The notes under the pieces: model-generated
The model's database searches: none
The model's input: the letters and a program-made list of their open reading frames with translations, nothing else
Told to the model about the DNA's origin: nothing
Origin: an uncultured Pseudomonadota bacterium
GTDB lineage: Bacteria > Myxococcota_A > UBA796 > SXON01
Assembly: GCA_903891165.1 (NCBI GenBank)
Contig: CAITDR010000048.1
Location: forward strand, 1-50,757
Direction: 5' to 3'
DNA: 50,757 bases
Made by a program: the position numbers and the translations under genes
Part shown: piece after piece, positions 1 through 21,085 of the stretch
Layout of the letters: every line of letters begins with the position of its first letter
Numbering within the stretch: position 1 is the stretch's first letter

Positions 1-2880
1 GCCTTCGCCCATCACTGCGAGGGCACGCACCACCGGGGCCCAGACCCCCAACAAACGCCCCTTTCCAACCGTTAAAATCTCCTTGAGCTCGCGCGCCAAA
101 CGCTCGGCCTCACCCCGCTCTCCCGACTGCCACAGCGCCCACACCCGCAAGGAGCCCGCCACCGCCGCACCCGTCGCCAGTGCGTAGCCTTCGGAAAGCT
201 CTTCGATCTCGTCGGAAAGGGCCATCGCCTCGGCGGTGTCTCCCGCAAATAGGGCCAGCTCGGCCCGCTGCCGCAACAGGCGCACCCAGGCCTCGGCCGC
301 GCGGGGATCGGCAGGTTGCCCCTGGATCGACATCGCCAGCGTACGCGCCCCCGGGTCATCCCCGGCGGCACGACGCAAAAGTACTTCTCCCCAGAGTGCG
401 TCGATGGCACAGACCCGACCTCCGGCCTCGCCCAGCTCCTGCACCTGGCGCAAGAGCCGGCTCATCCCCCCCAGATCCCCCTGTTGAAAGCGCAGGATCG
501 CCAAGCCCATCGCCGCCTCCGGCCACACCACTTCCCCCTGCGGCAACGACACCACCGCCTGCTCCAGGGCGCCCATGGCCTCGGGCATCCGCCCACCGGC
601 CAGCGCCACCAAGCCCACACCGGCCAATGCACGCCCCTGCGATGCCACATCCCCCTCGGTCCGGGCCGCCAGGAGCGCCTGCGCATAGGCATCCCCCGCC
701 GCGTCGATGCGATCCGATAAACGTAAGGCATCCCCCAAGGTCGTAAACAACTGCCGACGCAGTTGCGCCGCCTCCATCGGCCCCAGCGCCGCCTCGGCGG
801 CCTCGCGGGCCTCCAGCGCACGCTGGCAAAGCTGCCGTGCCGTCGCGGTGTCCCCACGCCGCAACGCCCGCCCCGCCCCCTGGATCAGGAGCGGATAGGC
901 CCCGGCCGGATCCCCTCCCTGGATCATATGCCAGGCCGCCACCTCGGCGATGGCCCCCAGCCGCCGCCGATAGAGCTGCTGCATCGCAAGTGCGGCCACA
1001 CGGTGCAGCAACAACCGCCGCTCCGGGCTCATACTCTCAATGGCCACCTGCGCCCTTCGAGCCGAAGGAATGCTGTACACTTCCTCCATTCCTTCTTCCC
1101 GAAGTTCCAAGAGCCCTTGACGCTCCAAGAGCCGCAAGGACTCCTGCAACGCCCCATCACTTGCGCCGGTGAGCGCCAGCAACAACGGCACCGAAGCGGG
1201 CGTAGCCCCCGGCCCACGGAGCACCGCCACCGCCTCCACCACCTCCCGCTGCAGCACCGGCAGTTGCTCCAAAAAGCGAGCTTCCACCAAGCGTACCCGG
1301 TCGGGCAGCGGCAAGGGCTCACTGCCCCGAAAGGACTCCACCGCCCGCAGCGCGCGGAGCATCCCGTCCGGCCCCTTCTGCACCCAGCCGGCGGTGCCCA
1401 AAGCATCCAATTGCTCCAGGATCAAACCCGGTACCCCGGCCAGTTCCTCTTGCAGGCGCCGTCCCAAGACCGCCCCCACCCCACCGCCCAGCCCCCGGTC
1501 GCGCAACATGCCGCGCACCGCCTCCCGATCCAGTCCCCCCAGACGCAGCACCACCACGCCCAAGCCGGTGTCCACCCCCGAAATAATACCGTAGGAAGCT
1601 GGCGCATCCACCACCCGCGCGGGCGGCTCCATACCCTCGGGCAGACAACTGCACACCAACAGCAGTGGCCCCGCCTCCATCGTGAGTTTTTGTTGGAGCA
1701 CCTGGAGCAGCCCCTCCGCCACCGAGGTGGGTGCCAGATCCAGATCGTCCACCACCAAGAGCGTCGGCGTTTCGCCCAGCCCCTCCATCAGCCGCCAGGA
1801 AAGCTCCCCTTTGGTGGGTGCCGTCGGCAGTCCTTCCAGCAATTGCTCCAGGGCATCGGGGGTGGCCCCCACCATCAGGCAACGTAGTCCCTGCTCACGT
1901 CCGCGCTCCGCGATCTCCAACAGCAGGCGGGTCCGACCGCTGCCTTTGCCGCCCACCACCGCGATGACGCCGCCAACGCCCTCTTTCACCAAGGAGCGCA
2001 CGCGATCCTGCACCTGTCGCAGTTCCTCGGCGCGGCCGTGGATGGGCAGGAGAGAGGGGGGTGCGGCGGAGAGGGCCAGCAGCACCTGACGGGCAGAAGC
2101 GTAGCGACGAGCGGGATCTTTTTCGAGCAGCTTTAAGCAGACCCGCTCCAGATGCCGAGGGATGGTCGGATCCAGCTCGGAGGGGGCACGGGGGACCTCA
2201 GAGAGGTGGCGGCTCAGGTAGCCGGCAATGCTGTCGGCCTGCACCACTTTTCGTCCGGTGAGCAGGTTGTACAGGATGGCGCCCAGTGAGTAGAGATCGG
2301 AGCGAGCATCTACCTTTTCGCCCATGATCTGCTCGGGCGCCATGAAGGCCACCGTGCCTACCAGCCTGCCGACGATGGTCAGCGCGGTATTGAAGTGATC
2401 TGTATCCTTGACTACACCAAAATCGGAGAGCTTGGGCACGCCGCTATGGGAAACAAGAATGTTGCCGGGCTTCAGGTCGCGGTGGACCAGACCCTGCTCG
2501 TGGATGTAGGCCAGGGCCTCGCAGACACCGCGGAAAAGACTCTCCACTCGCTCAAAACGGTCGGTTGGCGGCTTTTTTTCCCAACGCTCCAAGAGGCTAC
2601 CCAGATCGGTGCCCTCCACCAGCTCCAGGGCCAGATAGGGGTGCTCCCCGGCCACTCCCGCGTCAAAAACCCGCACTACATGGGGATGAGAGAGCCGCTT
2701 CAGTGTGAGATATTCGCGATCAAAACGCTTCCGCTCTTCGGTTGTGACCCGCGACGGATGCAGGACCTTCAGCGCCACTTCGCCGGTGGGACCATCGGCA
2801 CGGTAGACGGTGGCCATGCCCCCCACACCCAGCTCGCCGGTGATCCGATAGGGGCCGACACGTTCCCCCACACGCGGCAT
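1..2880 (-). CDS. Ser/Thr protein kinase with AAA/STAND-like ATPase and helical repeats (3' end outside window)
   Basis: Translating leftward from the ATG at 2880 gives 960 codons without a stop, running off the window edge. Residues 10-270 are a Hanks-type kinase: glycine loop GELGVGGMATVY, VALK lysine, HRDLKPGN from residue 133, and a DFG motif near 153. An ATPase domain follows, with a P-loop-like GGKGSGRT at 310-317 and a Walker B-like LLVVDDLD near 375. The rest is alanine/leucine-rich helical repeat of TPR type. The P-loop has Arg where the invariant Lys is expected, so ATP binding by this second domain is doubtful. The gene lies 11 bp after the paralogous kinase at 2892-6260, with a GAGG about 10 bases before the ATG, so it is probably the second gene of an operon. 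The role is inferred as a cytoplasmic signalling hub; its substrates cannot be read from sequence. Confidence 0.88.
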   Translation of the reverse strand, partial: MPRVGERVGPYRITGELGVGGMATVYRADGPTGEVALKVLHPSRVTTEERKRFDREYLTLKRLSHPHVVRVFDAGVAGEHPYLALELVEGTDLGSLLERWEKKPPTDRFERVESLFRGVCEALAYIHEQGLVHRDLKPGNILVSHSGVPKLSDFGVVKDTDHFNTALTIVGRLVGTVAFMAPEQIMGEKVDARSDLYSLGAILYNLLTGRKVVQADSIAGYLSRHLSEVPRAPSELDPTIPRHLERVCLKLLEKDPARRYASARQVLLALSAAPPSLLPIHGRAEELRQVQDRVRSLVKEGVGGVIAVVGGKGSGRTRLLLEIAERGREQGLRCLMVGATPDALEQLLEGLPTAPTKGELSWRLMEGLGETPTLLVVDDLDLAPTSVAEGLLQVLQQKLTMEAGPLLLVCSCLPEGMEPPARVVDAPASYGIISGVDTGLGVVVLRLGGLDREAVRGMLRDRGLGGGVGAVLGRRLQEELAGVPGLILEQLDALGTAGWVQKGPDGMLRALRAVESFRGSEPLPLPDRVRLVEARFLEQLPVLQREVVEAVAVLRGPGATPASVPLLLALTGASDGALQESLRLLERQGLLELREEGMEEVYSIPSARRAQVAIESMSPERRLLLHRVAALAMQQLYRRRLGAIAEVAAWHMIQGGDPAGAYPLLIQGAGRALRRGDTATARQLCQRALEAREAAEAALGPMEAAQLRRQLFTTLGDALRLSDRIDAAGDAYAQALLAARTEGDVASQGRALAGVGLVALAGGRMPEAMGALEQAVVSLPQGEVVWPEAAMGLAILRFQQGDLGGMSRLLRQVQELGEAGGRVCAIDALWGEVLLRRAAGDDPGARTLAMSIQGQPADPRAAEAWVRLLRQRAELALFAGDTAEAMALSDEIEELSEGYALATGAAVAGSLRVWALWQSGERGEAERLARELKEILTVGKGRLLGVWAPVVRALAVMGEG

Positions 2881-2891
2881 AGACGTGTACC

Positions 2892-5800
2892 TCACTCAGC
2901 CGCCGGATGCAGCCAGGGAGCTGCAAGAAAGCGCTCAGAGTCCTCGCGACCCAACGATGCAGCAAGAGAACGTGCCAATCCTTCCGCGATACGACGATGG
3001 CGCGCCCGGGTGGCATCATCGCCGCCCAGTGTCGCCAGGCAGTGCCCTTTAAGGGCGTAGAGACGAAAACCACAGGCATCGGCACGGCGCACCGCCGACT
3101 CTGCACGACGGGCGGCCTCGGCGCGGTCGCCCAAAGCAGCGTAGCCACGCGAAAGTGCAAGATCCAGGCGGCATTCTTGATAGGGCCAGCGGATACCCGG
3201 AACCTCCTGCGCCTGAAGCAGGAGTTTTTGCGCCCGATGGGGATCCGCCTCCGCCACAATCCTGGCCCGCCAGGCCAGAATCATCGGCGTAAAACCTTCG
3301 TTGTCATGGCGGGGAAGCAGCTCGTCACAGGCATCCAGCTCATCCGCCACCCGCTCCAGCTCCCCGGCGGCCCAGGCAGCGCGGGTCAAAACTACACGAC
3401 CAAAGAGCTCTTCTGAGGGATCACCCAGCTCACAGAGCATTGCCAGACCCTCCTCGGCCACCGCCAGAGATTCGTCGGTGTGCTCCATATCACAGAGGAT
3501 CAAAGCCTTATAGCAGAGAGAACGTGCCACACCCGGGGGGTGGTGGTTCTCGCGGGACTCGCTGCGGGTGCGCTCGGCCAGCTCCAGACCACGCTTCAGA
3601 TTTCCGGTAAAATGGTGGATCTCCACAAGATTTCCGCGAGCGGTGGCCAGCGGCGCAATCAGGCCCTCCTGCTCAAAAATCATCGCACTCTGCTCAAAGC
3701 TGCGGCGGGCTTCGGCGGTAAGACCCTTGCAGAGCGCTGCAAGGCCCAGGCCATTGTAGCCATAGGCGGTTGCACGGGGATCTTTGGCGGCCTCTCCCAC
3801 CGTCAAAAGCTCCTGCCAGTAGCGACGGGCTTCCTCCAGATCTCCCTGTGCCCAGGCCACCCCGGCCAGCACCTGCAGCGGCGTCGAACGCAGCACCCCT
3901 TCGGTCGCACGCAGCGCTTCCTGGGCGTAGGAACGGGCTTCTTCCAGGCGACCCAGTTGGCGGGCCTGCTGCCCCAGCTCGCCAGAGGCCTCCGCACGAA
4001 GGCCCTCGTCGCGGAGGTCCTCCGCCAGGCTGCGCGCCCGGGTCAGGTCGTCCAGGGTCTCGTCGAAGCGGCCGAGGTGCTGGAGGGCGCGGGCGCGGGA
4101 AAGAAGGAGGCTGGCAAGGCGGCGGTCGGCCTCATCCAGGGGGAGCTGACCACGAGCGGAGGGCTCCAAAGCCAGAGCACGGGTAAAATAGTCCGCCGCA
4201 TCGATCATAAATGCGCTCTCCAGGCGGCTCTGCCCGGCGCGCACCAGGTAGGCATAGCCCTTCCCGTGGAGCTGCCCCTGCTCGAAGTGCCAGGCCAGCG
4301 GCTCCAGGACCCGCTCCAGGTTGTGACGCTCCCGGCGCTCCAGAACCTGCCCGATACACTGATGTACCGCTGCTTGCTGGGCTTCTGTCAGCTGCTCCAG
4401 GAGCAGCTCCCGCAAGCTGGACTGGGCCAATCCGTAGCGTGGCTCACCGATTCGCCCCCGCACCAGACCCTGAGCCTCCAGCACCGAAAGGTCCGCCTGC
4501 ACGTCTGCCTCAGAGCGTCCGAGCACATCCGAGAGGAGCTGAGGTGTCAGCTCCAAAACACCCACCGCCAACACCTCCGCTACCATACGCACGGAAGGAG
4601 GAAGAAGGCGGATACGCGCCTCAATGGCCGCGCGCACGGAGATGGGAACTGGCAGGGTGGAGCGCTGGATCTGGCTCTCCTCCAGGGTCAGCTCCAGGCG
4701 ACCCTCCCGCTCCACCAGCACCTCCTCCTCCAAAAGCCCCCGCAACATCTCCTGAATAAAACCCTGGTTCCCCTCGGACTCCTGGTGGATCCGCTGGGCA
4801 AGAACCCGTGCCGCGGGGCTATCCCCCACCAGGGTAAGGAGAAGCTCCTCCACCGCCCCCACCGAGAGAGGGTCCAGAATGATCTGAACCGGCCGAAAGA
4901 GCTCCTTGAAGCGCTGAATTTTCTCCTCATCCACACTGGGATCCGCCGTGACCACCCAGAGCACCGCCTGCTCGGCCAGGGTCACGGTATTGCGGATCAG
5001 GTACTGGAGAAGATCCCAGGAAGAAGGGTCGAGAAGCTGAAAATCATCCAACAGAAGAAGCCGCGGGTTCCCTCGGTCACCTATCAAAAGGTTCCGATAG
5101 GTAGAATAGACAACATGGCGGTCTACTTTTCCACCTCGAAGTGCTTCGGCAAGCTGACGGGGGCCACTCATTCCCCCGGCGGCGAGGGCATCAAAAAGGC
5201 GGTCAAAGGCCCCTAAAGGTAGATCCGAGGCCGCGGCATGGGTCCGAATCGCAAAAATGTCGCAGCGCCGGGCCACATCTACCGCCACCTTGGCCATACG
5301 ACTTTTGCCCATGCCGTTGGTACCGGTGACCAGGACGACGCCGCCCGAGCCCGCCGCGCAGCGAATCACCCGCTCGGAAAGCAGCAATATTTCCAGATCA
5401 CGGCCCACCAGAGGCTGCGACCCCAAGGGCCCCGGTGGCTCCAACATCGCCAGCAAGTGGGTAGCGGTGGGAAAACGTTTGAAAGGATCTTTCTGAAGAA
5501 GACGAAGGCAGATGTCTTCCAGAAGGGGCGGCACATCCTCCACCAGCTCCGAGGGCGGCCGAGGCGTTTGGTGTAGTTGTTTTTCCAGAAAGCCCGCCAA
5601 TGTTCTGGCTGTAAATGGCTTCCTTCCAGTCAACAAAAAATAGAGCACCGCCCCCAGAGAGTAGAGGTCGGCGCGGCGGTCCACCCGCTGCCCCTGGATC
5701 TGCTCGGGGGAAACATAGGCCACCGTCCCCAGAAATTCGCCATGGCTGGTCAGCTCCCCGCCTGCCTCCTTCACCACCCCAAAATCCATCAATTTCAGGC

Positions 5801-6260
5801 TGCCGTCGGGGAGGATCATCAGGTTTCCCGGCGTAAGATCCCGGTGCACCAACCCGTACAGGTGGACATACTCCAGGGCCGCCGCCGTCTGCTGCAGCAC
5901 CGAGCGGGTCAGGGCAAAACGTTCGGCGGGCGGGGGTGGATGAGCCTCCCAGCCCTCGACCACCTTGCGGAGATCCACGCCGCGAACCAGCTCCATTCGA
6001 TACCAGGGACGATCCTGGAAGAGACCGGCTTCGTACACCGCCGCGATGTTGGGGTGGCAGAGCTGCGAGAGAAGGCGGAACTCCCGCTCGAAGCGGGCAA
6101 GAGCTTCAGAGCCTTCTACGCCGGGATTCATCAGCTTCAGCGCTTGACGCTCCCCCGTCTCCACATGCACCACCTCATAAACGGTGGCCATACCTCCGCG
6201 TCCCAGCAGAGATTGAATCTCCCAGGCACCCAAGCGCTGCTGTAGCAGAGGATCGTGCAT
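2892..6260 (-). CDS. Ser/Thr protein kinase with AAA ATPase domain and TPR repeats
   Basis: The 1122-residue protein begins with a kinase domain at about 12-275: glycine loop LLGRGGMATVY, lysine 42 in QALKLM, HRDLTPGN at 139-146, DFG at 159-161, and a SPEQ activation segment. The usual HRDLK lysine is Thr. An ATPase domain follows with canonical Walker A GTNGMGKS (313-320) and Walker B LLLLDDF near 405. A helical effector region and many TPR-like repeats occupy roughly 600-1100. This is the same order as the downstream kinase, so the pair looks like a tandem duplication. No TM segment is visible, so it is probably cytosolic. The ATG at 6260 is 86 bp from the divergent PP2C start, so both may share a control region. 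No strong ribosome site precedes it. Confidence 0.92.
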   Translation of the reverse strand: MHDPLLQQRLGAWEIQSLLGRGGMATVYEVVHVETGERQALKLMNPGVEGSEALARFEREFRLLSQLCHPNIAAVYEAGLFQDRPWYRMELVRGVDLRKVVEGWEAHPPPPAERFALTRSVLQQTAAALEYVHLYGLVHRDLTPGNLMILPDGSLKLMDFGVVKEAGGELTSHGEFLGTVAYVSPEQIQGQRVDRRADLYSLGAVLYFLLTGRKPFTARTLAGFLEKQLHQTPRPPSELVEDVPPLLEDICLRLLQKDPFKRFPTATHLLAMLEPPGPLGSQPLVGRDLEILLLSERVIRCAAGSGGVVLVTGTNGMGKSRMAKVAVDVARRCDIFAIRTHAAASDLPLGAFDRLFDALAAGGMSGPRQLAEALRGGKVDRHVVYSTYRNLLIGDRGNPRLLLLDDFQLLDPSSWDLLQYLIRNTVTLAEQAVLWVVTADPSVDEEKIQRFKELFRPVQIILDPLSVGAVEELLLTLVGDSPAARVLAQRIHQESEGNQGFIQEMLRGLLEEEVLVEREGRLELTLEESQIQRSTLPVPISVRAAIEARIRLLPPSVRMVAEVLAVGVLELTPQLLSDVLGRSEADVQADLSVLEAQGLVRGRIGEPRYGLAQSSLRELLLEQLTEAQQAAVHQCIGQVLERRERHNLERVLEPLAWHFEQGQLHGKGYAYLVRAGQSRLESAFMIDAADYFTRALALEPSARGQLPLDEADRRLASLLLSRARALQHLGRFDETLDDLTRARSLAEDLRDEGLRAEASGELGQQARQLGRLEEARSYAQEALRATEGVLRSTPLQVLAGVAWAQGDLEEARRYWQELLTVGEAAKDPRATAYGYNGLGLAALCKGLTAEARRSFEQSAMIFEQEGLIAPLATARGNLVEIHHFTGNLKRGLELAERTRSESRENHHPPGVARSLCYKALILCDMEHTDESLAVAEEGLAMLCELGDPSEELFGRVVLTRAAWAAGELERVADELDACDELLPRHDNEGFTPMILAWRARIVAEADPHRAQKLLLQAQEVPGIRWPYQECRLDLALSRGYAALGDRAEAARRAESAVRRADACGFRLYALKGHCLATLGGDDATRARHRRIAEGLARSLAASLGREDSERFLAAPWLHPAAE

Positions 6261-6346
6261 CCGTGCGTGCTGGAGGTGGCCGCCAGCCTCACTCCTTTAT
6301 ACGTTCCCGTGGCGGGTGCCAAACATGAAACACCCCGGAGCCCAAG

Positions 6347-7105
6347 ATGCGCCTGGAAGCCTACGTCCGCACCGACACCGGACCCGTTCGTGAAAACAAC
6401 GAGGATAACTTCCTTGTGGATGAGGACGGCGGCCTGTTTGTCGTCGCCGACGGCATGGGCGGGCATGCAGCGGGAGAGGTGGCCTCACGGGTTGCCGTGG
6501 ACACCATACGGGAGCTGCTGGAAGAGGGGCCTTCGCCCGAGGAAACCCGGCTGGACCGCAGCGTCCAGGATCCCGCAGATGAGCTGCGCGAACGTCTTCG
6601 CTATGCGATGAACCAGGCCAGCTACCGGATTCGGAAAGAAGCCCAGGCCAACCCGCAATATTCGGGGATGGGGACCACCCTCTGTGTGCTCCTGGTGGAG
6701 GCCGATCAGGCCCACCTCGCGCATGTGGGCGATTCCAGGGTCTACCTGATCCGGGATGGGCAGATCTTCCGGTTGACCCGCGATCATACCGTGGTGCAGC
6801 AGGAAATTGACGCCGGGCGGCTGACCCCGGAGATGGCCCGGCAGGTGCCGCATCGGAACTACCTGACGCAGTCGGTGGGCTATCATGGGCCTGTAGAGCC
6901 AGATACTTCCACAAGGCCGCTGCTACCAGGCGATGTGTTCCTGCTCTGCTCCGATGGGCTCACCGACCCGCTGGACGACCAGGCCATTGCCGGCATCTGC
7001 GAGCGCACCGATCTGGCCGACCTCGCAGAGACCCTGGTTCATGAGGCGCTGAAGGCCGGCGGAGAGGATAACGTGACCGTGGTGGTGGTCGGCGTTCGCG
7101 GCTGA
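6347..7105 (+). CDS. PP2C-type Ser/Thr protein phosphatase
   Basis: The 252-residue protein matches the bacterial PPM/Stp1 phosphatase layout. Metal-binding aspartates sit in [33 protein letters not shown] and GGEDNVTVV, in the expected order. The length is normal for a stand-alone catalytic domain, and no TM segment or regulatory domain is present. It presumably reverses phosphorylation by the divergently transcribed kinases at 1-6260. Kinase-phosphatase adjacency is common for this family, but the pairing here is inferred from position. The ATG is preceded by a purine-rich GGAGCCCAAG. The next gene is convergent, ending only 5 bp away. Confidence 0.93.
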
Positions 7106-13368: not shown

Positions 13369-15033
13369 ATGGCAGAGACCTATATACGCCTGGACAGACC
13401 AGCAATTCCGAGGGAGCAGCTGGGAAATGCCATCTATGGCACCTTCATGCACCTCGGATCGCCAGCTTTTTTTGTCATCCTCCTGGCAATTTTGGGCGTC
13501 AGCCTCCCCACCACTTTCTTTTCTTTTATCGCGGTTTCTGCCGTCTTCACCCCCTTGACCCTCTGGGAAGAGAAGCGGAACGCGTCGGTGCAGCTCCCCA
13601 AGCCCACCCCCAAGGAGTGGTGGGACGGCATGGGGATGGTCTTCATCAAGGGCATCGCCATCGGCGGTGGTTTTGTCACTTTTGGCTGGTGGGCTCTGCA
13701 CTTTATCAGCCCCTACCCTGCCCTTTCCAATAGCTGGTGGCTGATCGCCCTGGCGACCATCGGCACCGACTTCGCCTACTACCTGATCCACCGCTTGGTC
13801 AGCCATGGATCCGGAGATGGGGCGATCGTCCGGTACTATCGCAAAAAACACGGCGCCCACCACTCGGTCACCGAGCTGGACTTTTTGCGCGGCAACCAGT
13901 CCTCCATCGCCGATACGGCTTTTACCCAGTTTCAGCCTTCCTTGATCGTCCTCTCCTACCTCATGGGCATGGACCTTCCCGCCACCTGGGCCGCCTACTT
14001 TCTGATCCTGGCGCTCCAGGCCACCGACCACACCAGCGTCACCTATAATATTGGCTGGTTGAAATACATCTTTATGGACAACCACGCGCACAAGCTGCAC
14101 CACTGCAGGCGCGGGAACCTGGTCAACCATGCGGCGGCCTTTTCGGTCTTCGACCGCTTTTTCGGGACCTACTACGAGGATTGGGAGCTTTCTTCCAACC
14201 ACCTCCACCACCACAACATCGCCTTGCCCATCCGTGCGCTCCGCGGCGAGTCCAAGACCGGCTACGCGCTGGTGACCGGTGCCAGCAGCGGTATCGGTCT
14301 GGCCATGGCCCGGCAGCTGGCGGAGCGCGGCTACGGCCTGATTCTGGTGGCCCGCCGTAAGGAGCGCCTGGATACACTGAAAGAAGAACTGGAAGCTCGT
14401 CATTCCGTAAAAGTGGTGACCGTCGCCCAGGATCTGGCCGAGCCGGACGCTGCCCAAAAACTGTTGGAGGCCACCCGCATCTTCAAGGTGGATGTACTGA
14501 TCAACAATGCCGGCTATGGTATGCAGGGGAAATTTCTGTCGATGGACCTGGATGCCATCGAAAAAATGTTCCGGGTCAATATGACCAGTTTGACCCAGCT
14601 CACCCAGCTTTTTGCAAAAGAGATGGTCAAACGCCAGGGCGGCTACATTCTGAATGTGGCCTCGGCAGCGGCTTTTCTGCCCTCGCCCTATGTGTCGGCC
14701 TATGCCGCTACCAAAGCCTATGTGTTGGCATTCTCGGAAGCGATCAGCTTTGAGCTGCAGGGAACCGGTGTTTCCGTAAGCACCCTGTATCCGGGCATCA
14801 CGACCACCGAGTTCAATGACGTGGCCGAGGCCAAGACCCCCGGCTTTATGGCGCCGTCGATCCTGGGTGCGGAAGAGGTGGCTGAGGTAGGGCTGGCCGG
14901 GATGTTCGCCCGGAAGTCCGCCATCATTCCCGGCAAGATCAACAAGATCAACGCCTTCTTCAGCCATGTGGCCCCGCGCCGCCTGGTCACCTGGGTGGCG
15001 GGCAGCGCCCTGGCCAAAGCCAACGGCTGGTAG
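13369..15033 (+). CDS. Fusion of fatty acid hydroxylase/sterol desaturase domain with short-chain dehydrogenase
   Basis: One unbroken 554-residue frame. Residues 25-285 are a membrane fatty acid hydroxylase-type domain with several TM segments and the diiron histidine boxes HRLVSH (141), HGAHH (161) and HAHKLHH (239), plus a late HLHHH. From about residue 295 a complete SDR follows: nucleotide-binding TGASSGIG (303), NNAGYG, and the catalytic YAATK (445). The first half would hydroxylate or desaturate a lipid, the second oxidise or reduce it with NAD(P). I chose ATG 13369 because the open frame upstream is hairpin sequence and GGAGCAGGG precedes this ATG. No frameshift or linker anomaly is seen, so the fusion looks genuine. 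Substrate unknown. Confidence 0.88.
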   Translation: MAETYIRLDRPAIPREQLGNAIYGTFMHLGSPAFFVILLAILGVSLPTTFFSFIAVSAVFTPLTLWEEKRNASVQLPKPTPKEWWDGMGMVFIKGIAIGGGFVTFGWWALHFISPYPALSNSWWLIALATIGTDFAYYLIHRLVSHGSGDGAIVRYYRKKHGAHHSVTELDFLRGNQSSIADTAFTQFQPSLIVLSYLMGMDLPATWAAYFLILALQATDHTSVTYNIGWLKYIFMDNHAHKLHHCRRGNLVNHAAAFSVFDRFFGTYYEDWELSSNHLHHHNIALPIRALRGESKTGYALVTGASSGIGLAMARQLAERGYGLILVARRKERLDTLKEELEARHSVKVVTVAQDLAEPDAAQKLLEATRIFKVDVLINNAGYGMQGKFLSMDLDAIEKMFRVNMTSLTQLTQLFAKEMVKRQGGYILNVASAAAFLPSPYVSAYAATKAYVLAFSEAISFELQGTGVSVSTLYPGITTTEFNDVAEAKTPGFMAPSILGAEEVAEVGLAGMFARKSAIIPGKINKINAFFSHVAPRRLVTWVAGSALAKANGW

Positions 15034-19199: not shown

Positions 19200-19272
19200 A
19201 GGCGGATAGCTCAGTTGGAAGAGCAGTGCCCTTACAAGGCACGGGTCGCAGGTTCAAGCCCTGTTCCGCCTA
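19200..19272 (+). tRNA. tRNA-Val (UAC)
   Basis: A full cloverleaf folds. The acceptor AGGCGGA pairs with TCCGCCT, the D arm is GCTC/GAGC, the anticodon stem GTGCC/GGCAC carries loop CTTACAA with anticodon UAC, the T arm is GCAGG/CCTGT with loop TTCAAGC, and the discriminator is A. CCA is not encoded. Confidence 0.95.
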
Positions 19273-19382
19273 CTTCTTCCTCCCTCTTTGGCCAGCGGCA
19301 AAAAATTTTGCTGCCCTCCCTTGCAGCCACAAAGGAGTCGGTTAATAGGGAGGAGCTTTGGGCGTCAGCTCAATGCGGTTAT

Positions 19383-19459
19383 GGAGCGGTAGTTAAGTCG
19401 GTTATAACGCCAGCCTGTCACGCTGGAGGCCGCGAGTTCAAGTCTCGTCCGCTCCGCCA
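19383..19459 (+). tRNA. tRNA-Asp (GUC)
   Basis: The acceptor GGAGCGG pairs with CCGCTCC. The anticodon stem CCAGC/GCTGG holds loop CTGTCAC with anticodon GUC, the T stem is CGAGT-type with the usual TTCAAGT loop, the discriminator is G, and CCA is encoded. It lies 110 bp after tRNA-Val and is followed at once by a terminator. An unrecognised cassette starts about 115 bp downstream. Confidence 0.95.
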
Positions 19460-19463
19460 TCCT

Positions 19464-19501
19464 GAACCCTCGGTCCGAAAGGTCCGGGGGTTCTTGCTTT
19501 T
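19464..19501 (+). terminator. Rho-independent terminator after the tRNA genes
   Basis: GAACCCTCGGTCC pairs with GGTCCGGGGGTTC across a GAAA tetraloop, with one G-U pair and one mismatch. TTGCTTTT follows. Confidence 0.8.
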
Positions 19502-19573
19502 GGGGGGTCGGGGGGTGCCCTTCGCCGCTGCTGGAGCTTGACGGGGACACCGATCGTTTCTATACTGAAAGTC

Positions 19574-19891
19574 ATGCCCGCTCCGCAGTCCCTGGATGTA
19601 CACGTTGCCCTATGCGTTGGCGGGAAGAGAGCCTCCGGGTTCTTGGTCGGCTTTTCCGGGGTGCAACCGCGTTTCCGCCTGGACGCGGCGTTTGGCGCGA
19701 CGACAAGACATCCGATCTGGTCTTCGATGACACGGTGATGGTCACCTGCTACGTCCCCGCTGCCGCTCTGGACCGGGAGGCGATGGCGACGCTTCGTACA
19801 TTCCTTCATCGCCTCGGTCGGGAAGGAAATCAAGGGGGAGGTTGGCGTCGTGATCGGAAGCGAGTACTTTGGAATCACTGAGTTTGATTAA
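19574..19891 (+). pseudogene. Unrecognised small gene with two compensating frame disruptions
   Basis: The ATG at 19574 opens a natural-looking frame (SLDVHVALCVGGKRASGF). Around 19690 the protein-like sequence moves to another frame (DDKTSDLVFDD, VTCYVPAAALDREAMATLRT). Near the G5 run at about 19823 it returns to the first frame, ending EVGVVIGSEYFGITEFD and TAA at 19889-19891. Start and stop share a frame, 106 codons apart including the stop. Read straight, the first frame stops at 19736. Either two single-base indels have killed the gene or both are sequencing errors. The intact product would be about 105 residues, with no family recognised. The stop is 13 bp before the next ATG, so this is the first gene of a cassette. 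Confidence 0.5.
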
Positions 19892-19904
19892 GAGGAGGTA
19901 CGAT

Positions 19905-20273
19905 ATGGGACATCCCGATAGCAACCCTGCTGGCGCGGCCATTGCCACGGCTTTGGGTGCCAGTCGCCGCATTCCCGTGAGCACCGACGCACAAGGACCG
20001 CTTGGCCTGGTTCAGCTTCGCTCCGAGCTAGCGCTCCGCCTCCAGTCTGACGGCGGGCGGCCGACCGACCCGGCATGGACCATTCGGAGAATTGTGCCAT
20101 TTCGACCTGCGGGCTGGGCGGAACTGCAGGAGTTTGCCGCTCGGCTGACAGCCCAGGGCCGGTCCGTAAGTCCCGCGCAGCTCGCAGCACTGCTGATTGA
20201 GCGAGGTCTGGCTCAACTGGAGGAGGGGGTTGCCCGCGAGGGAGACTCGGCACTTCGTGCGGTGGTGGGATGA
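19905..20273 (+). CDS. Small protein with possible ribbon-helix-helix-like C-terminus
   Basis: The 122-residue product starts at an ATG with an excellent AGAGGAGGT ribosome site. Residues 60-110 read as a strand (IRRIVPFRP) and two helices (WAELQEFAARLTAQG, SPAQLAALLIERGLAQLEE), a plausible ribbon-helix-helix arrangement. The match is by pattern only. The following gene starts inside its 3' end, an arrangement common for toxin-antitoxin or regulator-partner pairs. No family was recognised. Confidence 0.65.
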   Translation: MGHPDSNPAGAAIATALGASRRIPVSTDAQGPLGLVQLRSELALRLQSDGGRPTDPAWTIRRIVPFRPAGWAELQEFAARLTAQGRSVSPAQLAALLIERGLAQLEEGVAREGDSALRAVVG

Positions 20274-20652
20274 CGTCGCTGGCAGGGGGCGGGTCGCCTT
20301 GATCGAGAACCACACGGGCGATTCCCGTGGAGCCCTCCGCCGCTGGCACGCCTTCATCGTGGCCGCCGGTCGATTCGCAGGGTGGCTCGTCGAGTACCAT
20401 CCTGGTGGAGCATACGCTGGCGCGGGCTCTTCGGTGGACTTTGTTCACGACCACGTGGCGGCCCAACTCTGCGCCTGGCCGAGCGGCTGCATCGATACCT
20501 ACACCATGCGTATTCCCGAAGACCCGGAGCCGGTGTACGGCCACGTCGAGGTCGATTCCGAGGAGGCCATCGGCGCCTACGCACGTGCGTTCGAGGAGCA
20601 GGTGCTTGCGCTACGACGGAACAACTCTCCCTTCACCTCTGAGGCCAGCTAA
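20257..20652 (+). CDS. Unrecognised protein, third gene of the post-tRNA cassette
   Basis: From the GTG at 20257 the product is 131 residues. Alternative starts are an ATG at 20197 (77-bp overlap) and a TTG at 20299. The sequence is soluble and mixed, with many Trp, His and acidic residues (ALRRWHAFIVAAGRFAGWL, GSSVDFVHDHVAAQLCAW, VEVDSEEAIGAYARAFEEQV). No catalytic motif was recognised. It is tightly linked to the gene at 19905. Its last 20 bp overlap the convergent ASCH gene. Confidence 0.6.
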   Translation: MRWWDDVAGRGRVALIENHTGDSRGALRRWHAFIVAAGRFAGWLVEYHPGGAYAGAGSSVDFVHDHVAAQLCAWPSGCIDTYTMRIPEDPEPVYGHVEVDSEEAIGAYARAFEEQVLALRRNNSPFTSEAS

Positions 20653-21085
20653 AAGCCGAGCGCCCCTCCCCACCCAGATCCTCCACCATCACAAAGCGCT
20701 CGCAGACCAGCTCCATCTCCGGCGTAAAGCCTCCGTTCCGCGCAAAATAGGCGGCATGGCCCTGCTGCCAGCCCTCCAGGCTGTCGTCCTCGCCCTCCGA
20801 AAGCGCAAAATCGGCGTCTACCTCACAGAAGCGGCGGATGGTCACCTCGACCGTGTGGATCACCAGCGCGGGGCGGCCATCCCACTCCAGAGCGATGTCG
20901 CGGCGGCCGACGGCGGGCAGGACTTCGCCCTCGGCGGAATAGTCCCGTAGAGCGCCGCAGGTCGCCGTCTTTTTGCCGGAACGAACCAGGGCGAGGAGCC
21001 GGTCGGAGAGCACCTCGCTGTCGCCAAAAACGAAGGTCGTGGCATCGGGATAGCGGGCGCGTAAGGCGGCGGGAATTTCCGTCAC
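20633..21085 (-). CDS. ASCH domain protein
   Basis: The 150-residue product has features of the ASCH superfamily: an N-terminal YPDATTFVFGDS, then SGKKTATCGAL, the small-residue/lysine nucleic-acid-binding motif, and PALVIHTVEVTIRRFCEVD. Relatives bind RNA or act as small amidohydrolases; the substrate here is unknown. The GTG start at 21085 abuts the TAA of the cupin gene, so the two are co-transcribed. Confidence 0.8.
   Translation of the reverse strand: MTEIPAALRARYPDATTFVFGDSEVLSDRLLALVRSGKKTATCGALRDYSAEGEVLPAVGRRDIALEWDGRPALVIHTVEVTIRRFCEVDADFALSEGEDDSLEGWQQGHAAYFARNGGFTPEMELVCERFVMVEDLGGEGRSAFSWPQR

Follow-up and report, generated by a model that had tools for sequence, protein, structure and literature searches.

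A probable decayed member of a family of tRNA-anchored cassettes associated with large serine recombinases

The locus behind the tRNA-Asp gene of the window, by which is meant the entire 50,757-nucleotide contig analysed here, probably represents, in decayed form, a family of short mobile cassettes that are anchored at tRNA genes and that use a mechanism based on large serine recombinases (LSRs). Homology to the units found in relatives suggests that the locus is one eroded unit whose right end has been lost. An orphan cassette is thereby tied to a tRNA-anchored cassette-array system in little-studied deltaproteobacterial lineages. The preliminary description had suspected a mobile, toxin-antitoxin-like cassette at a tRNA 3' end, and the relatives bear this out, with intact units at tRNA-Asp, a displaced tRNA end and many toxin-antitoxin genes. 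The genome is a metagenome-assembled genome of 7.05 Mb in 711 contigs, of which the window is contig C48, and the genomes compared with it are fragmented metagenome-assembled contigs, the window's own genome being the sole representative of its genus.

The cassette behind tRNA-Asp

The tandem of tRNA-Val and tRNA-Asp genes that precedes the cassette (Table 1) is common to most relatives, and ARAGORN placed the tRNA-Asp gene, with its encoded CCA, where it had previously been described. Array units of relatives have left ends (L010:8235-8294 and L011:6677-6738) with ~80% identity to the hairpin that follows. Further on, the -10 region and start, TTTCTATACTGAAAGTCATG, are the same in the window, G012 and G013, of which G013 also has the -35 hexamer of the window.

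Table 1. Features of the cassette and its flanks in the window
Feature	Position	Strand	Basis or remark
tRNA-Val (tac)	19200-19273	+	ARAGORN
tRNA-Asp (gtc), CCA encoded; 3' end CCGCCA is the left cassette junction (attB side)	19383-19459	+	ARAGORN and junction comparison
Terminator-like hairpin directly 3' of CCA	19460-19507	+	Fold, -24 kcal/mol
Promoter TTGACG-17-TATACT, strong, leaderless-like	19538-19573	+	Sequence; ends 7 nt upstream of gene 1 ATG
Gene 1, pseudogene	19574-19891	+	82-nt deletion at ~19611/19612; TGA at 19736-19738; 1-nt insertion at ~19830-19845
Gene 2, 122 aa, possible C-terminal ribbon-helix-helix	19905-20273	+	Open 122-codon frame
Gene 3, likely start TTG 20299	20299-20652 (longer frame 20257-20652, 131 codons)	+	Homologue starts
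Right breakpoint	20613-20652	+	Homology to G007 unit stops at 20612, a few codons short of the homologue's stop
ASCH-domain gene, flank outside the cassette	20633-21085	-	Domain search

Three rightward genes had been read at this locus, of which genes 2 and 3 are indeed open frames and gene 1 is interrupted, by an in-frame TGA and by indels relative to the intact G013 copy. Alignment to that copy located the damage, 82 nt missing and one base extra; because the net change is -81 (82 - 1), the ATG and TAA of gene 1 share a frame and the pseudogene appears gene-like by eye. Intact gene 1 homologues have 117-142 aa, two of them lying at L010:8452-8880 and L042:8687-9070. Homologues of gene 1 and of gene 2 each occur in 9 of the 63 genomes of the order, which speaks against a chance reading, and those of gene 3 in 6 of the 63, the window's own genome being counted in each case; all three distributions are patchy, and at the family level the cassette is likewise patchy and not conserved. 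Comparison of the window with G013 gave dN 0.035 and dS 1.41 for gene 2, and comparison with G007 gave dN 0.10 and dS 1.10 for gene 3. Since dN is far below dS, genes 2 and 3 are maintained by purifying selection in the family, with gene 1 of the window dead.

An overlap of genes 2 and 3 had been taken as a toxin-antitoxin-like arrangement. The gene 3 homologues of three relatives start at a (GTG/ATG)-ATC-GA codon that aligns with TTG 20299 of the window, 25 nt past the end of gene 2, so the overlap is probably not real and arose from a mis-called start; alignment thus makes TTG 20299 the probable true start of gene 3. The ribbon-helix-helix end proposed for gene 2 retains a weak RHH_5 signal (E = 0.0097) that lies under the Pfam cut-off, and the low-confidence structure model of the protein found no match in a fold search. 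Beyond that signal, searches of genes 2 and 3 against Pfam, NCBIfam, PHROGs and PADLOC returned no clear family, in keeping with the earlier impression that both fall outside known families, and sequence-profile searches against the PDB gave nothing convincing.

Elsewhere in the window, a single long frame (13369-15033) has a start of the membrane fatty-acid hydroxylase type, rich in His, and a short-chain dehydrogenase end; it is either a fusion or a frame artefact.

Arrays of units and their cargo

In the window's family, units of mostly ~0.5-3.8 kb lie in series and in a single orientation 3' of tRNA-Asp, tRNA-Leu(CAA), tRNA-Val(CAC), tRNA-Arg(TCT), tRNA-Gln(CTG) and tRNA-Trp(CCA). The distal end of a unit is a conserved repeat fused to a copy of the 3' end of that tRNA, and the orientation of the repeat is constant at all 15 loci in which the tRNA lies inside the retrieved stretch. 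At units of the tRNA-Asp type the repeat ends in ...CCAGTACACC, directly followed by CCGCCATC and then a terminator, this second part being the 3' end of tRNA-Asp plus terminator; the terminators differ from unit to unit. A junction agrees with the tRNA of its own locus for 6-11 nt, as against ~3-5 nt for other tRNAs, Leu and Val excepted. At six tRNA types the relatives display, over 6-11 nt, the displaced 3' tDNA fragment by which Islander recognises genomic islands. Many units are visibly eroded.

In G013 the cassette itself lies a few kb downstream of the same tRNA-Val/tRNA-Asp pair, inside a row of 1.0-2.4 kb units separated by ~230-nt repeats. Similar rows in G012 and G001 do not adjoin the tRNA-Asp gene in the assembly despite their tRNA-Asp-type ends, and in G007 a VapBC pair, with a close homologue of gene 3 after it, lies downstream of tRNA-Asp. 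Units with a gene 1-gene 2 pair are found at tRNA-Asp (G013), tRNA-Val (G013, G016) and tRNA-Leu (G002), and the pair also occurs beyond recognised arrays (G019, G020, G040, G049). A search of the open-access literature yielded no published description of such arrays.

This context bears on one alternative, namely that the window holds three ordinary chromosomal genes that by chance lie behind a tRNA. The base composition of the cassette is the same as that of the window (0.639 versus 0.632 G+C), as that alternative would have it, but presence among relatives is patchy, the same cassette lies at tRNA-Asp inside the G013 array, and the gene 1-gene 2 pair is found at three different tRNAs. The array context in relatives refutes this reading, which is left with hardly any probability.

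As a separate observation, the tRNA-Asp gene is present twice in G009 (L068, G009:C124, oriented positions 1794-1990), as a near-identical direct tandem, whereas other relatives have a single copy; the duplication could stem from insertion or excision at that tRNA.

The cargo of the units is rich in toxin-antitoxin genes. Among 92 unit proteins were 18 PIN, 10 RHH_1, 5 ParE, 5 Unstab_antitox, 4 AbiEii, 4 MazE, 4 DUF4160 and 4 DUF2442, counts that are approximate because the genes were called by a simple codon-usage script; AbiEi, TacA and zeta toxin were also present. None of these toxin-antitoxin families recurs among the 41 other genes of the window. DUF4160 and DUF2442 recur as pairs at tRNA-Leu and other arrays (L094, L042, L091, L098), beside known toxin-antitoxin pairs.

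Gene 2 pairs with gene 1 in every genome that has an intact pair, and the two are adjacent in all intact loci; they form the kind of adjacent, co-directional, conserved pair by which type II toxin-antitoxin systems are recognised. Because such pairs sit in units at several tRNAs amid toxin-antitoxin-rich cargo, a toxin-antitoxin-like role is plausible, and the two genes are probably an effector and its regulator or antitoxin. For the unit in the window, we infer a toxin-antitoxin function.

The nature of gene 1 lends weight to another possibility, in which the cargo is not a toxin-antitoxin system: gene 1 would encode a small enzyme with a metabolic or regulatory role (a SAM lyase or a PII/CutA-like protein) and gene 2 its transcriptional regulator, and gene 3 would be a passenger with no relation to the two. 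Searches of intact gene 1 homologues against Pfam, NCBIfam and PADLOC found no family, and a weak match (E = 0.0034) was to phrog_3543, a phrog of unknown function. A tblastn search gave a weak, remote link to DUF3574, which favours an enzyme; homologues were absent from the phage records and viral contigs searched, and plasmids gave remote DUF3574 proteins in Priestia alone. The model of an intact gene 1 protein (mean pLDDT 72) has a fold of the PII/CutA/SAM-lyase type, and a fold search with it returned first the phage SAM lyase Svi3-3 (PDB 6zm9; Z 9.6 over 111 residues, 17% identity) and next CutA (Z 7.2), so that at moderate model confidence the protein is predicted to have the SAM lyase fold. 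Gene 1 homologues conserve the paired acidic residues D79-D/E80 plus E111. In SAM lyases the Glu residues E69 and E105 matter, E69 being catalytic (PMC7877911), and the conserved acids of gene 1 are reminiscent of these. That gene 3 also occurs behind VapBC, with genes 1 and 2 missing, fits a role as a passenger. Against an enzyme stand the toxin-antitoxin genes in most neighbouring units and the invariably tight pairing of gene 1 with gene 2; moreover, depletion of SAM by a lyase could be toxic in its own right. Weighed together, these points leave the enzyme reading not far short of probable.

Recombinase tails and the proposed mechanism

Translated in reverse, the repeat gives W(R)GVLETARTFCLAPEPEVRVQMSQYK. 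Between repeat copies, the differences at codon positions 1, 2 and 3 number 59/41/97, and conserved Val, Pro and Arg codons change synonymously; by this codon pattern the repeat is coding sequence, the last ~30 codons of an LSR gene in reverse. The same peptide forms the C terminus of full-length LSRs in G012 and G009 (628 and 635 residues), which carry Resolvase, Recombinase and Zn-ribbon domains with the tail inside the same ORF. A search with the translated repeat found many loci in 15 of the 71 genomes of the class, 14 of the 15 in the window's family, the weakest tail matches having marginal E-values. A tRNA-like structure of the repeat was considered and rejected, since by counting the T-loop-like sequence lies 5 nt too far from the CCA.

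These properties also decide against a classical integron, in which the units would be IntI gene cassettes and the repeat attC. Small units that follow one another in order and in one direction, with a common end repeat and toxin-antitoxin cargo, are what a chromosomal integron would give, a 7-bp inverted repeat is present in many repeat copies, and some relatives (G007, G013) have a true IntI. However, the repeat is coding and folds no better than shuffled sequence in three of four cases (z -0.84, +0.80, -1.80, -0.41), junctions track tRNA 3' ends, and IntI over the cut-off is missing from G001, G008 and G012 despite their arrays or tails. With no tie of IntI to the arrays, no attC-type fold and a coding repeat, the attC reading was rejected as extremely improbable. 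Within the same family, integron integrases over the TIGR02249 cut-off were recorded in G007:C104, G013:C6, G010:C9, G016:C18 and G017:C56, so integrons of the classical type may exist alongside the tRNA arrays.

At tRNA-Asn in G011, a closely related LSR reads the shared ...KLAQRVEW and then LPLPDLNWGPPD, which is the antisense of tRNA-Asn from its CCA. The LSR or LSR remnant that G001 and G008 each have at this tRNA likewise runs into antisense tRNA, and in G048 the frame of a more distant LSR either enters antisense tRNA-Asn or stops next to it. At the same place the unsplit LSRs of G009 and G004 read TGGCTCCCG, which in reverse complement is CGGGAGCCA, the 3' end of tRNA-Asn, and in the LSR frame the antisense CCA is the Trp codon TGG. 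Since antisense tRNA, beginning with the CCA, takes the place of the LSR gene's own 3' end at tRNA-Asn, attP appears to lie inside the LSR gene, whose 3' end would be swapped upon integration, as the arrangements in G011 and G001 indicate.

Three further observations concern LSRs of this kind. In G001 a same-family LSR is split by two transposase-like genes (2767-4967) into a catalytic and a C-terminal part (L146, G001:C31, reversed, 2050-6520). Directly upstream of the LSR in G004 and G011 (L144:2131-2505, L145:1463-1861) lies a frame of 124-132 aa, a serine-recombinase N-terminal fragment or a small recombinase gene and a possible partner or directionality factor. In G008 (L055/L062, G008:C93) an LSR tail with a tRNA-Asp-type end lies ~50 kb 3' of tRNA-Asp on the same strand, with possibly a large element between the same att sites.

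According to the mechanism proposed here, attP would be located at the Trp codon of the LSR gene, and the partner site would be the 3' end of a tRNA gene. Recombination would leave the LSR reading into antisense tRNA on one side, and on the other the original LSR tail, joined to the old tRNA end, would be displaced to the far end of the unit. Short units would have lost the LSR gene and kept both ends, a tRNA-type left and an LSR-tail right, and because they keep both ends an LSR could move them in trans. New units would pile up adjoining the tRNA. In its full form, the proposal is of integron-independent gene capture: LSRs with attP in their own 3' end would move recombinase-less cassettes in trans into many tRNA 3' ends, building toxin-antitoxin arrays, with the LSR C terminus altered at each integration. 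This wider proposal, read from sequence comparison, is tentative, and is possible rather than probable. Several facts run counter to an LSR model: units begin with a tRNA-type terminator where the 3' end of an LSR is expected, the G001 and G012 arrays with tRNA-Asp-type ends are away from the tRNA-Asp gene, the tail in G008 is the sole one there and 50 kb distant from tRNA-Asp, three LSRs with intact tails do not adjoin any tRNA, and no unit is known in circular form.

The main rival holds that full LSR elements inserted serially at one tRNA and each lost its LSR gene, such that the units are immobile fossils. LSRs of the same family at tRNA-Asn with swapped tails, together with the remnants in G008, are in line with it, as is the visible erosion of many units, and tandem accretion is known for tRNA islands (Islander, PMC4383910). 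Yet nearly all units are cleanly without an LSR gene while both ends and cargo are intact, the terminator, not LSR remnants, directly follows the CCA at the start of units, and cargo types are repeated from one tRNA to another. Serial insertion followed by fossilisation is accordingly somewhat doubtful, if a credible alternative.

Under the proposed mechanism, the window unit would once have comprised the gene 1-gene 2 pair and gene 3, and its right end and the greater part of gene 1 would later have disappeared. Past 20612 the frame of gene 3 enters the 3' end of the ASCH gene, and the LSR tail, the junction and the displaced tRNA end are all missing at the right end of the unit; at its left it retains the junction, the terminator and the promoter, and after these the broken gene 1 and genes 2 and 3. 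There is no recombinase gene in the window unit and none among the listed genes of short units. That no integrase adjoins the tRNA and that no second tRNA 3' end lies within the window had been noted before, and searching gave the same outcome, so the window has neither the displaced 3' tDNA fragment nor the integrase on board by which Islander islands are defined. Nor was an LSR tail or a close LSR detected in the window's genome, which is 84% complete. Because the right end is lost and the genome is without a detected tail or close LSR, the window unit is almost certainly immobile at present.

Relation to known systems

If units do move in trans, they would represent a second route, besides integrons, for the ordered stacking of small genes, and the arrays offer new candidates for toxin-antitoxin or defence pairs, gene 1-gene 2 with its predicted SAM-lyase-like fold among them. 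As in chromosomal integrons, small cassettes with similar ends and many toxin-antitoxin genes are arranged in series; unlike in those integrons, there is no dependence on IntI and attC, and the anchor is the 3' end of a tRNA.

In the SCC elements of staphylococci, Ccr large serine recombinases mediate insertion at the 3' end of rlmH, tandem composites are formed, and some units are without ccr. SCC thus resembles the units described here in its class of recombinase, in the use of a gene 3' end as the insertion site, in the tandem arrangement and in having units that lack the recombinase gene, but it has one protein-gene target and elements of 20-60 kb, and is not known to leave a recombinase tail at the unit end.

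Islander islands lie between a tRNA gene and a displaced 3' copy and accrete in tandem, the count being restricted to islands of 2-200 kb that themselves carry a tyrosine integrase (PMC4383910). The units, too, are bounded by the tRNA gene and a displaced 3' copy and occur in tandem; they differ in being mostly 0.5-3.8 kb, in having no integrase gene and in ending with an LSR tail. Serine recombinases that target tRNA genes are reported to be rare, and include those of mycobacterial AICEs in tRNA-Leu and of phage phiRSM1 in tRNA-Ser (PMC3218068). These are single conjugative or phage elements, and that study (PMC3218068) reports no arrays in which short toxin-antitoxin units end in a split recombinase tail.

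A parallel for the rewriting of a recombinase gene is temperate phage Mx8 of Myxococcus xanthus, in which attP falls within the coding region of the integrase and int acquires a new 3' end when the phage integrates (PMC6070905). The likeness consists in an attP within the recombinase gene and a rewritten 3' end, indicated here by sequence. The integrase of Mx8 belongs to the tyrosine recombinases and the element is a complete phage, whereas the present system has an LSR and, in addition, short recombinase-less cargo units arrayed at several tRNAs. LSRs serve as genome-engineering tools, and the Mx8 trick, whereby integration rewrites the C terminus of the integrase, would here be extended to this class of enzymes, which has rarely been reported at tRNA genes.
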